Part shown: positions 1,046 to 34,829 of the stretch, one piece after another | How positions within the stretch are numbered: position 1 is the first letter of the stretch | Layout of the letters: the number at the start of each line of letters is the position of its first letter | Assembly: GCF_010915705.1 (NCBI RefSeq) | Contig: NZ_JAAIKE010000004.1 | Span: 186,001-250,000, forward strand | Direction of reading: 5' to 3' | DNA length: 64,000 nucleotides | DNA from: Pseudotabrizicola algicola | GTDB lineage: Bacteria; Pseudomonadota; Alphaproteobacteria; Rhodobacterales; Rhodobacteraceae | Translations under genes and position numbers: made by a program | Notes under the pieces: model-generated | The model's input: the letters and a program-made list of their open reading frames with translations, nothing else | The model's database searches: none | What the model was told of the DNA's origin: nothing

Positions 1046-1117
1046 GGCGCTCTCCTCCTCCCTGCGCCAACAGGTTTCGCGGCGAACCGGTCCTCCCCCG
1101 GTTCGCCGCTTTCTTTT
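1046..1117 (+). ncRNA. CcsR/cuckoo-like small RNA, two hairpins
   Basis: Two hairpins lie 59 bases after the DUF1127 stop. The first has a 5-bp stem GGCGC/GCGCC (1046-1050, 1064-1068) with loop TCTCCTCCTCCCT. The second has a perfect 12-bp stem (1079-1090 with 1098-1109), a shortened TCCTCCC loop and a T-rich tail. Two stem-loops exposing CCTCC-type sequence define the CcsR/cuckoo RNA family of Rhodobacteraceae, which is processed from a DUF1127 mRNA. This is a single-copy version of the array at 33 kb. Exact ends are not known; the hairpins mark the minimum. Confidence 0.75.
1079..1117 (+). terminator. Intrinsic terminator of the DUF1127/small-RNA transcript
   Basis: Perfect 12-bp stem GCGGCGAACCGG / CCGGTTCGCCGC with loop TCCTCCC, followed by TTTCTTTT. 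It is also the second hairpin of the small RNA. Confidence 0.9.
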
Positions 1118-1237
1118 GTCCGCCGCCGCCCCGCCCCTGTGGCGATGTTAGCGCTGTCATAATCTGTGAAGCGCGGGGGGCTTTCCGTGGCCTCTGCCCC
1201 GGTTTACCCAAGGGCGCATTACAGGGAGAAAGCCGCC

Positions 1238-31427: not shown

Positions 31428-32519
31428 TCAGGCCATGCCCCCCGCGATCAGGCGATGGGCAAGGCGGGCATAGGCCTCGGCCTCGGGGGCATCGGTGGCC
31501 GCGATAGGGGTGCCGCTGTCGCCTGCCTGACGCACGGCGAGGGTAAGCGGAAGCTCTCCCAGAAAGGGCAGATCGAGCCGTTCGGCATCGGCGCGCACCC
31601 CGCCATGACCGAAGATCTGCGTCTCGTGGCCGCAATTGGGGCAGCAGAAGGTGGACATGTTCTCGATCAGCCCGAGAACCGGCGTTTTGAGCTTGAGGAA
31701 CATATCAAGCGCCTTGCGCGCATCGAGCAGCGCCACATCCTGCGGCGTGCTGACGACGATGGCCCCGGTCAACTGGGTGCGCTGGCACAGGGTAAGCTGG
31801 ATATCGCCCGTGCCGGGGGGCAGGTCGATGAGCAGCACATCGAGCTGGCCCCATGCCACCTGCGTCAGCAGTTGCTGCAAGGCCCCCATGATCATAGGGC
31901 CGCGCCAGATCACCGCCTCGTCGTCCTTGAGCATGAGGCCGAGGGACATCATGGTGACGCCATGCGCGGTGAGCGGTTCGATGATTTTTCCATCGGGGCT
32001 GCCGGGGCGGCGGTTGACGCCCATCATGCGCGGCTGGCTGGGGCCGTATATATCGGCGTCCAGCAGGCCGACGCGGCGGCCCTGACGGGCGAGGGCGACG
32101 GCGAGGTTCGATGACACGGTGGATTTGCCCACCCCGCCCTTGCCCGAGCCGATGGCGATGATGCGGTCGATGCCCGCCAGCTTTTGCGGCCCGCCCTGAT
32201 GCGGGGTCGGGTGCTGGCCGATCTTGAGGCTGGGCGCAGGGGCTGCCGGTTTGGCGGCGGGGCCATGCGCGGTGGTGACGGCCTGCACCGAGGCGACGCC
32301 CGCAATGGCCCGCACGGCAGCTTCGGCCTGCGGCTGCAAGGGCGCGACGATGCGGGCGACCTCGGGCGTCGGGGCCTCGATCACGAAACGGACGCTGGCA
32401 CCGCCCGCCGATTCGTCAATCGAAAGGGCGCGGATCATGTCTTGCGAGACCAGATCACCGCCTTCGGGCAGCTTGACGGACGCCAGAGCCGCCATGACTT
32501 CACGTTGCGACACACCCAT
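31428..32519 (-). CDS. apbC: Mrp/ApbC family iron-sulfur cluster carrier ATPase
   Basis: 363 residues. An N-terminal MIP18/DUF59 domain (about 1-85) is followed by a Pro/Ala linker and a P-loop ATPase with the deviant Walker [12 protein letters not shown], switch DLPPGTGD, and the cluster-binding CxxC in FCCPNCGHE. It assembles Fe-S clusters and hands them to target enzymes in the cytoplasm. Two tandem dyads lie 44-82 bases upstream of its start, suggesting iron- or Fe-S-linked control. It is divergent from the DUF1127/small-RNA locus. Confidence 0.95.
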
Positions 32520-32562
32520 CTTTGTTTTCCTTTTGCCTGTCGTTGCGGCACAGTTGCGATGT

Positions 32563-32601
32563 TTGACCGAAAGCTCAAGGTTTGCTTGACCAAACGCTCA
32601 A
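32563..32601 (-). promoter_or_regulatory. Tandem imperfect dyads upstream of apbC
   Basis: TTGACCGAAAGCTCAA (32563-32578) and TTGACCAAACGCTCAA (32586-32601) are 16-base near-palindromes (TTGA...TCAA) differing at two positions and starting 23 bases apart. The placement fits an operator for apbC/mrp. Which regulator binds is not known from sequence. Confidence 0.5.
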
Positions 32602-32687
32602 ATTTTGCGCGAAGGCGCTGTAATTAATGACGTTTCTGTGACAGTCAGCCATGCGGTTGCTGCATGGCGGCATTGCGCGAAGGGCGT

Positions 32688-32718
32688 ATTGTGCAGTTGC
32701 AGCATTTGCCCCATGTTA
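32688..32718 (+). promoter_or_regulatory. RpoH-type promoter of the second DUF1127 / CcsR-like locus
   Basis: ATTGTGCA, 13 bases, CCCCATGTTA. Same length and same -10 as the block at 677-707, with GCAGCAT shared between the two elements. In Rhodobacter sphaeroides the corresponding DUF1127-CcsR transcript is driven by RpoH-type sigma factors, which fits. Confidence 0.75.
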
Positions 32719-32775
32719 CCCCTAACAACGCGGCAGAACGCTGCAACCGCAATCGAACCAAGAGGCTAGAGTATC

Positions 32776-32991
32776 ATGGCTTATGTAAACTCCTCGCGTG
32801 CCGCGTCTTACGGCATTGCTGACCGGGCGGCGGCCATCGTGAAATCCATTCGCGTTGGCCTTGAGCGTCGCCGGGTGTTCAAACAGACCGTCCGCGAACT
32901 GCAGGCGCTGTCGAACCGCGAACTGGCAGACCTTGGCATTCACCGCAGCATGATCACCCGTGTTGCAAACGAAGCGGCCTACGGCAAGTAA
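32776..32991 (+). CDS. ccaF1: DUF1127 protein, CcaF1-like
   Basis: 71 residues: an N-terminal Ser/Ala-rich part, then IRVGLERRRVFKQTVRELQA and LSNRELADLGIH, the DUF1127 core with many arginines. Its length and AAYGK ending match the copy at 772. The gene is immediately followed by twelve CCTCCTCCC hairpins, the arrangement known for ccaF1 and the CcsR RNAs in Rhodobacter sphaeroides, where the protein binds RNA and affects processing of the co-transcribed small RNAs. The symbol is assigned by synteny and size. AGAGGCTAGAG is the nearest ribosome-site-like sequence before the ATG. Confidence 0.85.
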   Translation: MAYVNSSRAASYGIADRAAAIVKSIRVGLERRRVFKQTVRELQALSNRELADLGIHRSMITRVANEAAYGK

Positions 32992-33002
32992 GTTTCTTTG
33001 CG

Positions 33003-33072
33003 AGGCCCCTCTCCTCCTCCCCGGGGTCTGTAGCAAAAGCGTCGGTATCGTCCTCCTCCCTGATACCGACGC
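33003..33072 (+). ncRNA. CcsR-like small RNA unit 1
   Basis: Hairpin 1 has stem AGGCCCC/GGGGTCT (33003-33009, 33023-33029) with loop TCTCCTCCTCCCC. Hairpin 2 has a perfect 11-bp stem GCGTCGGTATC/GATACCGACGC (33039-33049, 33062-33072) with loop GTCCTCCTCCCT. The unit starts 11 bases after the DUF1127 stop. Ends are estimated from the hairpins. Confidence 0.75.
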
Positions 33073-33082
33073 CCTTTAAACC

Positions 33083-33177
33083 GGAGCAAGCGCTCCTATC
33101 TGATACGGGAAGCCCCTCCTCCTCCCCGGGGCTTTTCGGAACAGCGGCACCCTTCTCCTCCTCCCTGAGGGTGCCGC
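33083..33177 (+). ncRNA. CcsR-like small RNA unit 2
   Basis: A lead hairpin GGAGC/GCTCC (33083-33096) comes first. Next is AAGCCCC/GGGGCTT (33110-33116, 33128-33134) with loop TCCTCCTCCCC, then a perfect 10-bp stem GCGGCACCCT/AGGGTGCCGC (33144-33153, 33168-33177) with loop TCTCCTCCTCCCTG. Confidence 0.75.
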
Positions 33178-33186
33178 GGATCATTC

Positions 33187-33282
33187 GAGGGGTTCACCCC
33201 TCACCACAGTTCGAACGGCTCCTCCTCCTCCCTGAGCCGCTCGGATCAGCGGCGGCCCCCTCCTCCTCCCTGGGGTCGCCGC
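33187..33282 (+). ncRNA. CcsR-like small RNA unit 3
   Basis: Lead hairpin GAGGGG/CCCCTC (33187-33202). Then CGGCTC/GAGCCG (33216-33221, 33234-33239) with loop CTCCTCCTCCCT. Then an 11-bp stem with one G-T pair (33249-33259, 33272-33282) with the same loop core. Units 3 and 4 are near-identical 107-bp repeats. Confidence 0.8.
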
Positions 33283-33293
33283 GCCCGAAATCC

Positions 33294-33389
33294 GAGGGGT
33301 CCACCCCTCACCACAGTTCGAACGGCTCCTCCTCCTCCCTGAGCCGGTCGGATCAGCGGCGGCCCCCTCCTCCTCCCTGGGGTCGCCGC
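33294..33389 (+). ncRNA. CcsR-like small RNA unit 4
   Basis: A near-exact copy of unit 3, shifted 107 bases: lead hairpin GAGGGG/CCCCTC, CGGCTC/GAGCCG (33323-33328, 33341-33346) and an 11-bp stem (33356-33366, 33379-33389). Only a few bases differ, all outside the anti-Shine-Dalgarno loops. Confidence 0.8.
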
Positions 33390-33400
33390 GCCCGAAATAC

Positions 33401-33506
33401 GAGGGTTGCACCCTCAGACCCCTTCGGTTCCGCCCCCTCCTCCTCCCTGGGGCTGGACTGAAAGTCGGAACCTCCGCCCCCTCCTCCTCCCCGGGGCGCG
33501 GGTTCC
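33401..33506 (+). ncRNA. CcsR-like small RNA unit 5
   Basis: It begins 107 bases after unit 4. The lead hairpin is GAGGGT/ACCCTC, a paired change from GAGGGG/CCCCTC. Next come GCCCC/GGGGC (33432-33436, 33449-33453) and a longer stem in which GGAACC (33467-33472) pairs with GGTTCC (33501-33506) outside CGCCCC/GGGGCG. Both loops carry CTCCTCCTCCC. Confidence 0.75.
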
Positions 33507-33512
33507 CGGATA

Positions 33513-33592
33513 GGCCGGCCCCCTCCTCCTCCCTGGGGTTGGTCGTGAATGATGCGGCGGCGCCCCTCCTCCTCCCTGGGCGTCGCCGTTTT
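33513..33592 (+). ncRNA. CcsR-like small RNA unit 6
   Basis: A ten-pair stem with three G-T pairs, GGCCGGCCCC/GGGGTTGGTC (33513-33522, 33535-33544), is followed by the terminator hairpin (33555-33588). Both loops carry CTCCTCCTCCCT or CTCCTCCTCCC. This unit ends the transcript. Confidence 0.75.
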
Positions 33593-33600
33593 CATTTTCG
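33555..33600 (+). terminator. Intrinsic terminator closing the small-RNA array
   Basis: Eleven-bp stem (33555-33565 with 33578-33588, one G-T pair) followed by TTTTCATTTT. It is the only hairpin of the array with a strong T-tract, so the DUF1127 gene and all six units probably share one primary transcript. Confidence 0.85.
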
Positions 33601-33686
33601 GGGCTTGCAGTCGCGCGGGACTTGGGATTGTTCGGGGCCTGCGGGTGCCGGTTGCGCCGGAACAGCCGCGCCAGAGCGGGAGCATC

Positions 33687-34829
33687 ATGCAGATTTCCTT
33701 GATCTCAGCAGCCCTTGTCGCTGCGCTTGTCGGCTATGGGTCCACCATTGCGCTGGTGCTGGCGGCGGCGGCGGCGGTGGGCGCGGATGCGGGGCAGACG
33801 GCGAGCTGGGTGCTGGCGGTGTCGCTGGCCAAGGCGGCGGGCTCGGCCTGGCTGTCGGTGTGGAACCGGGTGCCGGTGGTTCTGGCATGGTCGACACCGG
33901 GCGCTGCGCTGATTGCGGCGACCACGGGGGTCACGCTGCCGCAGGCGGTCGGGGCCTTTGTGCTGGCGGGTGCGCTGGTGGCGCTGACGGCGGCGGTGCG
34001 CCCCCTCGGGCGGCTGGTCGCGTCGATTCCCGACGGGATCGCGGCGGCGATGCTGGCGGGGGTGCTGCTGCCCTTTTGTCTGCGCGGGGCCGGGGCGGCA
34101 GAGGCGGCGCCGGGATTGGTCATGCCGATGGTGGCGGTCTTTGCGCTGGTGCGGCTGTGGAATCCTGCGCTTGCGGTTCTGGCGGCACTGGCGGCGGGGC
34201 TGGCGCTGGCCTTTGGCGGCGGGGCGGCGGTGCTGCCTGCGCTGGCAGTGCCGATGCCTGCCCCTGTGCCGGTGCTGCCCGAATGGGATCTGGGGGTGCT
34301 GCTCGGCTTGGGCGTGCCGCTGTATCTGGTGACGATGGCGAGCCAGAACCTGCCGGGGTTCGCGGTGATGCGGGCGGCGGGCTATGAGCCGCCGGTGTCG
34401 CGGGCGCTGGCGGTGACGGGGGGGCTTTCGGCGGTGTCGGCGCTGTTCGGGGCGCATACGGTGAACATGGCGGCGATCACGGCGGCGATCTGCATGGGCG
34501 ATGACGTGCATCCCGACCGCGCGCAGCGCTGGAAGGTGGGGCTTGCCTATGCGGGCGTCTGGGTGGTGCTTGGCCTGAGTTCGCCCGCGATTCTGGCCTT
34601 GCTGGCCGCGCTGCCGCCGCAGGTGATGGCGGCGCTGGTGGCCCTGGCGCTGCTGGGTCCGCTTATGGGGGCGCTGACGGGGGCCTTTGCCGCGCCGCAG
34701 ACCCGTTTTGCCGCCACGATCACGCTGGCGGTGGGCGGATCGGGGGTGGCGGTGTTCGGCGTCGGAGCGGCGTTCTGGGGTCTGGTCGCCGGACTGGTCG
34801 TTTACGGGCTGGAGCGGGCGCGGGCCTAG
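33687..34829 (+). CDS. benE: BenE family benzoate/H+ symporter-like transporter
   Basis: 380 residues with about twelve hydrophobic helices. The NCS2-like repeat motif STPGAALIAA in the first half, and QNLPGFAVMRAAGY with FGAHTVNMAAITAAICMGDDVHPD in the second half, match BenE. Inner-membrane uptake of an aromatic acid or similar anion is expected; no degradation genes are nearby to name the substrate. The frame is open 46 codons upstream into the RNA terminator, so the internal ATG 33687 is the start. It ends with a 4-base convergent overlap with uvrD. Confidence 0.88.
   Translation: MQISLISAALVAALVGYGSTIALVLAAAAAVGADAGQTASWVLAVSLAKAAGSAWLSVWNRVPVVLAWSTPGAALIAATTGVTLPQAVGAFVLAGALVALTAAVRPLGRLVASIPDGIAAAMLAGVLLPFCLRGAGAAEAAPGLVMPMVAVFALVRLWNPALAVLAALAAGLALAFGGGAAVLPALAVPMPAPVPVLPEWDLGVLLGLGVPLYLVTMASQNLPGFAVMRAAGYEPPVSRALAVTGGLSAVSALFGAHTVNMAAITAAICMGDDVHPDRAQRWKVGLAYAGVWVVLGLSSPAILALLAALPPQVMAALVALALLGPLMGALTGAFAAPQTRFAATITLAVGGSGVAVFGVGAAFWGLVAGLVVYGLERARA

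Follow-up and report, generated by a model that had tools for sequence, protein, structure and literature searches.

Runs of hairpins that share one loop sequence and vary freely in their stems raise the question of whether they encode a set of separate small RNAs, one long structured untranslated region, a decoy for another RNA or repetitive sequence of no regulatory consequence. Such a run lies directly behind a short DUF1127 gene in Pseudotabrizicola algicola, within the window analysed here, a stretch of 64,000 nt from a genome of 4,491,281 bases in 29 contigs. The Cuckoo RNA family and its CIN1 locus, to which a locus of this layout might be compared, reportedly go back to Reinkensmeier and Giegerich in 2015. 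Loci of this family, in which CcsR-like sRNAs accompany a short DUF1127 gene, are common in alphaproteobacteria (PMC10253847, in part; here and below, 'in part' marks a source used as an excerpt). The best-described case is that of Rhodobacter (Cereibacter) sphaeroides, for which DUF1127/CcsR co-transcription, RNase E processing, effects of the DUF1127 protein CcaF1 and targeting of FlhR have been published (PMC10253847, PMC8307010, PMC7866481; all in part), with the CcsR mechanism also treated elsewhere (PMC8625941, in part).

A DUF1127 gene followed by a twelve-hairpin array

The DUF1127 protein, probably a small RNA-binding protein, is encoded next to a Mrp/NUBPL-type P-loop protein gene that lies upstream on the opposite strand, and shows 94-100% identity in records L066-L071. 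Twelve exact copies of CCTCCTCCC stand directly 3' of the gene on the same strand (33013-33576, + strand), spanning 564 nt, and a BenE-type transporter gene follows the array. DUF1127 has five matches in the whole genome; neither CCTCCTCC nor TCCTCCC occurs in the 3 kb of sequence covered at the other three. The earlier note on this DNA had described twelve hairpins with the motif in the loop, and this description held: CCTCCTCCC lies in a hairpin loop at all twelve sites, and 11 of the 12 stems exceed flank shuffles at p<0.01 (6,000 pooled shuffles), with the 7-pair stem of hairpin 1 at p=0.058. The same note's statement that the stems pair perfectly is accurate for seven of the twelve in the shuffle scoring, or six when longer stems are allowed; the remaining stems contain one or two mismatches each.

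Motif spacings along the array are 39, 66, 39, 67, 38, 69, 38, 70, 44, 42 and 43 nt, and the array reads as four two-hairpin units followed by a terminal, evenly spaced four-hairpin block (Table 1). A division into six two-hairpin units, as proposed earlier, is thus upheld for four close pairs and was set aside, on motif spacing, for the last four hairpins, which may form one RNA. Each of the four 66-70-nt gaps contains a 5-6-pair inverted repeat free of the motif (scores 14, 17, 17 and 16), and three of these rise above the 95% shuffle level (14.5), which bears out the motif-less lead hairpins also mentioned in that note. Gap inverted repeats pass the 95% shuffle level in 21 of 47 cases in genus clusters and in 68 of 124 cases in loci L073-L145, three of these loci being genus members that are counted in both sets. 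The last hairpin (33554-33589) runs into a T-rich stretch and is terminator-like; a terminator scan of 32500-33800 returned no terminator, and as it considered loops of 3-8 nt only, it says little about this hairpin.

Table 1. Features of the two DUF1127 loci, numbered from the first nucleotide of the window.
Feature	Position	Strand	Basis
Second DUF1127 gene, 71 aa	772..987	+	Pfam PF06568, E 1e-7
Second-locus tail: CCTCCTCCC hairpin (1046-1068) and terminator-like hairpin with TCCTCCCCC loop (1079-1109)	1046..1118	+	Sequence
PhaR-like site CTGCATGGCGG, differing from CTGCNNNGCAG at one position	32660..32670	+	Comparison with published PhaR consensus
Conserved element TTGTGCAGTTGCAGCA, containing TTG as candidate -35	32689..32704	+	Two exact matches in genome, including this one
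CCATGT, candidate RpoH-type -10	32711..32716	+	Sequence
DUF1127 gene, ccaF1-like, 71 aa	32776..32991	+	Pfam PF06568, E 3.6e-13
Unit 1: hairpins 1 (33003-33029) and 2 (33039-33072)	33003..33072	+	Rfam CcsR1, hairpins, hairpin 2 covariation
Separator inverted repeat GGAGCAAGCGCTCC, motif-free	33083..33096	+	Score 14, under 95% shuffle level
Unit 2: hairpins 3 and 4	33100..33182	+	CcsR1 52.3 bits, below cut-off
Separator hairpin GAGGGGTTCACCCCTC	33187..33202	+	Inverted-repeat score
Unit 3: hairpins 5 and 6	33209..33282	+	CcsR1 44.7 bits, below cut-off
Separator hairpin GAGGGGTCCACCCCTC	33294..33309	+	Inverted-repeat score
Unit 4: hairpins 7 and 8	33316..33389	+	CcsR1 45.2 bits, below cut-off
Separator hairpin GAGGGTTGCACCCTC	33401..33415	+	Inverted-repeat score
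Terminal block: hairpins 9-12, spacing 44, 42, 43	33423..33589	+	Hairpins; ar14 match below cut-off

Probable membership in the CcsR/cuckoo family

Rfam and covariation evidence both bear on the identity of the array. The CcsR1 model (RF02791) matches at 32992-33077 with 68.8 bits against a gathering cut-off of 65.3, covering unit 1 only, and five other matches along the array score 13.4-52.3 bits; the search with a CcsR covariance model that the earlier note suggested as a check thus recognises unit 1, the other matches all being below cut-off. The ar14 model (RF02344) gives four matches along the array, the best of which (33460-33594) reaches 49.2 bits and falls short of the cut-off of 58.8. 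Matches to 6C, Scr3202, ar7 and other Rfam families in the array were below their own cut-offs and were set aside.

Of the twelve stems, that of hairpin 2 (unit 1) was assessed for covariation, in 48 related and hence not independent sequences (the window and 47 of 80 named DUF1127 loci, the other 33 having been dropped by a spacing and flank rule). Two-sided changes occur at 11 of 11 pairs and 95.3% of cells are paired; cells with a two-sided change number 84, whereas the shuffles average 15.5 and none of 500 reaches as many; when the partner strand was slid by 1-3 columns, pairing fell to 25.6-62.1%. Covariance support in relatives, raised in the earlier note for the stems at large, was accordingly found for this hairpin. 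The loop motif is invariant in the alignment by the selection rule. A third of the motif sites in the genus set have weak stems by the shuffle scoring, 106 of 159 lying above the 99% level.

The layout agrees with that of the CcsR1-4/ccaF1 locus of R. sphaeroides (RF02791), in which a 71-aa DUF1127 gene is likewise followed by hairpins in the same direction with CCUCCUCCC in the loop, and with the Cuckoo/CIN1 arrangement, in which CcsR-like sRNAs go with a short DUF1127 gene. It differs in carrying 12 motifs instead of the eight expected of four two-hairpin RNAs, in its evenly spaced four-hairpin end block, and in that units 2-4 and the end block remain under the RF02791 threshold that unit 1 passes. 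SmelA075 and SmelA099 of Sinorhizobium meliloti have three and four hairpins (PMC3927594, in part). As far as that excerpt goes, these RNAs and the ar14 family (RF02344) share with the present array a succession of CCUCCUCCC-loop hairpins with variable stems, and the terminal block resembles them, whereas here the hairpin block forms the end of a DUF1127-CcsR array. Taken with the CcsR1 match over threshold, the PF06568 assignment, the covariation of one stem and the published CIN1 description (PMC10253847, in part), this supports the earlier reading of CcsR-like RNAs behind a ccaF1-like gene, and the locus is very probably a member of the CcsR/cuckoo (CIN1) stress-RNA family.

Distribution and growth of the array

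CcsR-like clusters are widespread in relatives. Within the genus, a CcsR1 match at E<=0.01 is present in 15 of 16 genomes (12 over cut-off), the sole exception being an 85% complete draft of about 740 contigs; the clusters stand 3' of a DUF1127 gene and contain 7-16 motifs (15 clusters, the present one and 14 others, with cluster L044 at a contig end). At the family level, 118 of 150 genomes have a CcsR1 match at E<=1e-4, eight of them over cut-off, and 32 have none. At least one motif lies within about 1.5 kb downstream in 74 of the 80 named DUF1127 loci (downstream sequence is shorter than 1.5 kb for six of the 80). At least 12 motifs are found at 11 of these loci, five of the 11 being genus members, and some relatives have only 1-5. 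Twelve motifs therefore represent a high copy number that is not exceptional, and the suggestion that this genome holds a special, expanded version of the locus is not sustained by these counts. In Mesobaculum littorinae, 16 motifs spaced very regularly at 69/44 nt form an array that represents a similar expansion outside the genus group.

Array length appears to vary through whole units. A 107-nt tandem repeat with 97% identity takes in units 3 and 4. In eight clusters compared by units, which were recognised by the spacing of exact motifs (the first units of L042 and L043 being missed in this way), units of the unit-3/4 type share 92-100% identity with a reference (unit 4 of L050), several of them 100%; one to three such units occur per cluster. 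Closest partners share 92-95% identity for first units and 86-96% for second units. This pattern fits growth of the array by duplication of a conserved unit.

The second DUF1127 locus and scattered motifs

The second DUF1127 gene in the window has a much shorter tail, which ends with a T-rich stretch after its terminator-like hairpin. Its CCTCCTCCC hairpin has a short stem (5 pairs, score 11), and its CcsR1 match of 34.0 bits is below cut-off. Tails of this type are also seen in L053, L056 and L061, and side loci of genus relatives combine a DUF1127 gene with CTCCTCC downstream in 8 of 13 cases. On both strands of the 4.49 Mb genome, CCTCCTCCC occurs 40 times: 12 copies in the array, one at the second locus and 27 elsewhere. 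Eight of the 27 stray sites were examined for a stem, of which one lies above and seven below the 95% shuffle level. The one above it, at C1:680732-680740, is flanked by a strong stem of 11 pairs (score 27.5). Away from the DUF1127 loci, two copies also share a strand at C12:524113-524232, with a spacing of 111 nt.

Upstream elements and a possible role for PhaR

The region before the DUF1127 gene contains elements that recur widely. The element TTGTGCANNTGCAGCA is found upstream of the DUF1127 start, at 61-192 nt, exactly in 41 of the 80 named loci and with one mismatch in 31; read backwards, it never comes closer than four mismatches in the same 80 loci. TTGTGC-N16-CCATGT or TTGTGC-N16-CCATCT is present in 31 of the 80, and the former occurs in the window and is conserved in the genus alignment. 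We take these sequences to be a possible RpoH-type promoter. At the CcsR locus of R. sphaeroides, an RpoHI/RpoHII promoter has been described (PMC10253847, in part). A sigma-70 promoter scan of 32500-33800 found none. The only other exact TTGTGCANNTGCAGCA in the genome (C1:983313-983328) sits between genes that, by translation, resemble those of a solute-binding protein and a LacI-type regulator. At C26:107387-107656, a DUF1127 gene lacking a nearby loop motif has a TTGTGCANNTGCAGCA-like site upstream with two mismatches.

A second recurrent element resembles the binding site of PhaR, which in R. sphaeroides binds CTGCNNNGCAG and which in S. meliloti represses the sRNA MmgR (PMC12542648, in part). 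The sequence CTGCNNNGCAG lies within 250 nt upstream at 50 of the 80 named loci, against 0.59 on average and never more than 3 when these upstream regions were shuffled 200 times, and 2 of 80 loci for a mock palindrome. Its N3-4 pattern occurs in 26 of 919 windows elsewhere in the same records; these control windows are mostly coding by position, and the test was repeated by shuffling the same upstream regions. The site accompanies the loop motif, being present at 49 of the 74 loci that have the motif versus one of the six that do not, and the TTGTGC element is found at five of these six. Among the main loci of the genus, exact CTGCNNNGCAG occurs at 10 of 14 (own locus included in the comparison), and at second-type loci, with that of the window included, at none of nine; the second locus of the window is also three positions off the TTGTGC element.

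PhaR is encoded in the genome (PHB_acc_N, E 7e-27), and its gene has a phasin-like neighbour (21.7 bits, below the Pfam cut-off); the region before this neighbour contains TGCTGCATTGCAG and TGCTGCGGTGCAGCA. In this gene pair (C24:135445-138723), the stop codon of the phasin-like gene is followed at about 30 nt by a copy of CCTCCTCCC, which precedes a terminator-like hairpin and forms no clear stem-closed loop by eye. Direct control of the ccaF1-CcsR locus of Rhodobacteraceae by PhaR, a PHB-granule sensor, can tentatively be proposed. It would act through CTGCNNNGCAG and through a TTGTGCANNYGCAGCA site that overlaps the -35 element, and the anti-Shine-Dalgarno array, variable in dose, might then couple carbon-storage state and stress to the translation of uptake and carbon-metabolism mRNAs. 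Such control is a lead only, because the site in the window deviates from the consensus at one position and the window's second locus has no site. A literature search on PhaR together with DUF1127, judged by titles and the beginnings of abstracts, returned nothing on such control.

Proposed mechanism and alternative explanations

The array might act as follows. A single stress-induced transcript would serve as DUF1127 mRNA and contain in the 3' UTR four two-hairpin RNAs and the four-hairpin end block, closed by the terminator-like hairpin. RNase E would cut this precursor into separate sRNAs, as in R. sphaeroides, and the DUF1127 protein may influence the processing step. The mature RNAs would each expose CCUCCUCCC in loops closed by stems and use it to pair with Shine-Dalgarno sites that are rich in purines (GGGAGGAGG type), thereby lowering the translation or stability of chosen mRNAs. 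Presumably the loop shares its polarity with the 16S anti-Shine-Dalgarno sequence; a mimic of that strand would have mRNAs, not ribosomes, as its partners. Copy number would set the dose, and the sequence shows that this number changes by unit duplication.

Published work offers partial parallels. CcaF1 promotes CcsR maturation according to one study (PMC10253847, in part), at odds with another in which increased CcaF1 amounts interfere with it (PMC8307010, in part). For the three- and four-hairpin relatives in Rhizobiales, a block of ribosome-binding sites is presumed (PMC3927594, in part), and by analogy we infer that the same may occur here. In the P. algicola genome, GGAGGAGG-N3-10-ATG sites number 27, compared with six for the pattern read backwards. 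Of the 27, 11 open frames of at least 100 codons, and the target set is consequently uncertain. Pfam matches for seven of these 11 candidates (L212, L218, L231 and L233 were left out) comprise two solute-binding proteins, two AMP-binding enzymes, an intradiol-type dioxygenase, a response regulator and a PD-(D/E)XK nuclease match; the list consists of predictions and is not evidence.

Alternatively, the array might be mainly one long 3' UTR structure that sets the timing of DUF1127 mRNA decay or stores DUF1127 protein as feedback, its loops being protein-binding sites and not antisense elements; this is unlikely, and the loop polarity that we take to match the 16S anti-Shine-Dalgarno sequence argues against it. 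A constant loop on free stems would also suit a protein-binding loop (constancy here being by selection), and the DUF1127 gene adjoins motifs at 74 of the 80 named loci. CcaF1 is also reported to bind RNA and affect CcsR levels (PMC10253847, in part), whereas CcsR1-4 of R. sphaeroides are processed RNAs with flhR as a reported target (PMC8307010, in part).

Somewhat less probable still is a sponge that titrates another RNA, with copy number as its point. The many copies of one loop, 7-16 per genus cluster, would serve such a function, but some relatives make do with 1-5 motifs, and the loop mimics the 16S anti-Shine-Dalgarno strand and so should bind mRNAs, not ribosomes; nothing in these results gives a sponge preference over ordinary antisense action on ribosome-binding sites. 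That the hairpins are tandem terminators or repeat-driven sequence with no regulatory role can be given next to no credence: although the last hairpins of the array and of the second locus are terminator-like and units 3 and 4 form a near-identical tandem repeat, a stem co-varies over 48 sequences, terminators have no need of a fixed loop, and the inner hairpins lack T runs by eye.

Significance

The preferred reading, that of a CcsR/cuckoo locus, places the array in a kind of locus that is already known and would itself not surprise a specialist. What is new is one clear further member, with named relatives, of a family whose loci encode a small RNA-binding protein together with its client sRNAs. 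The locus also shows how array length varies within one genus group, from 7 to 16 motifs and with near-identical tandem units, and it points to a possible link with the PHB regulator PhaR.
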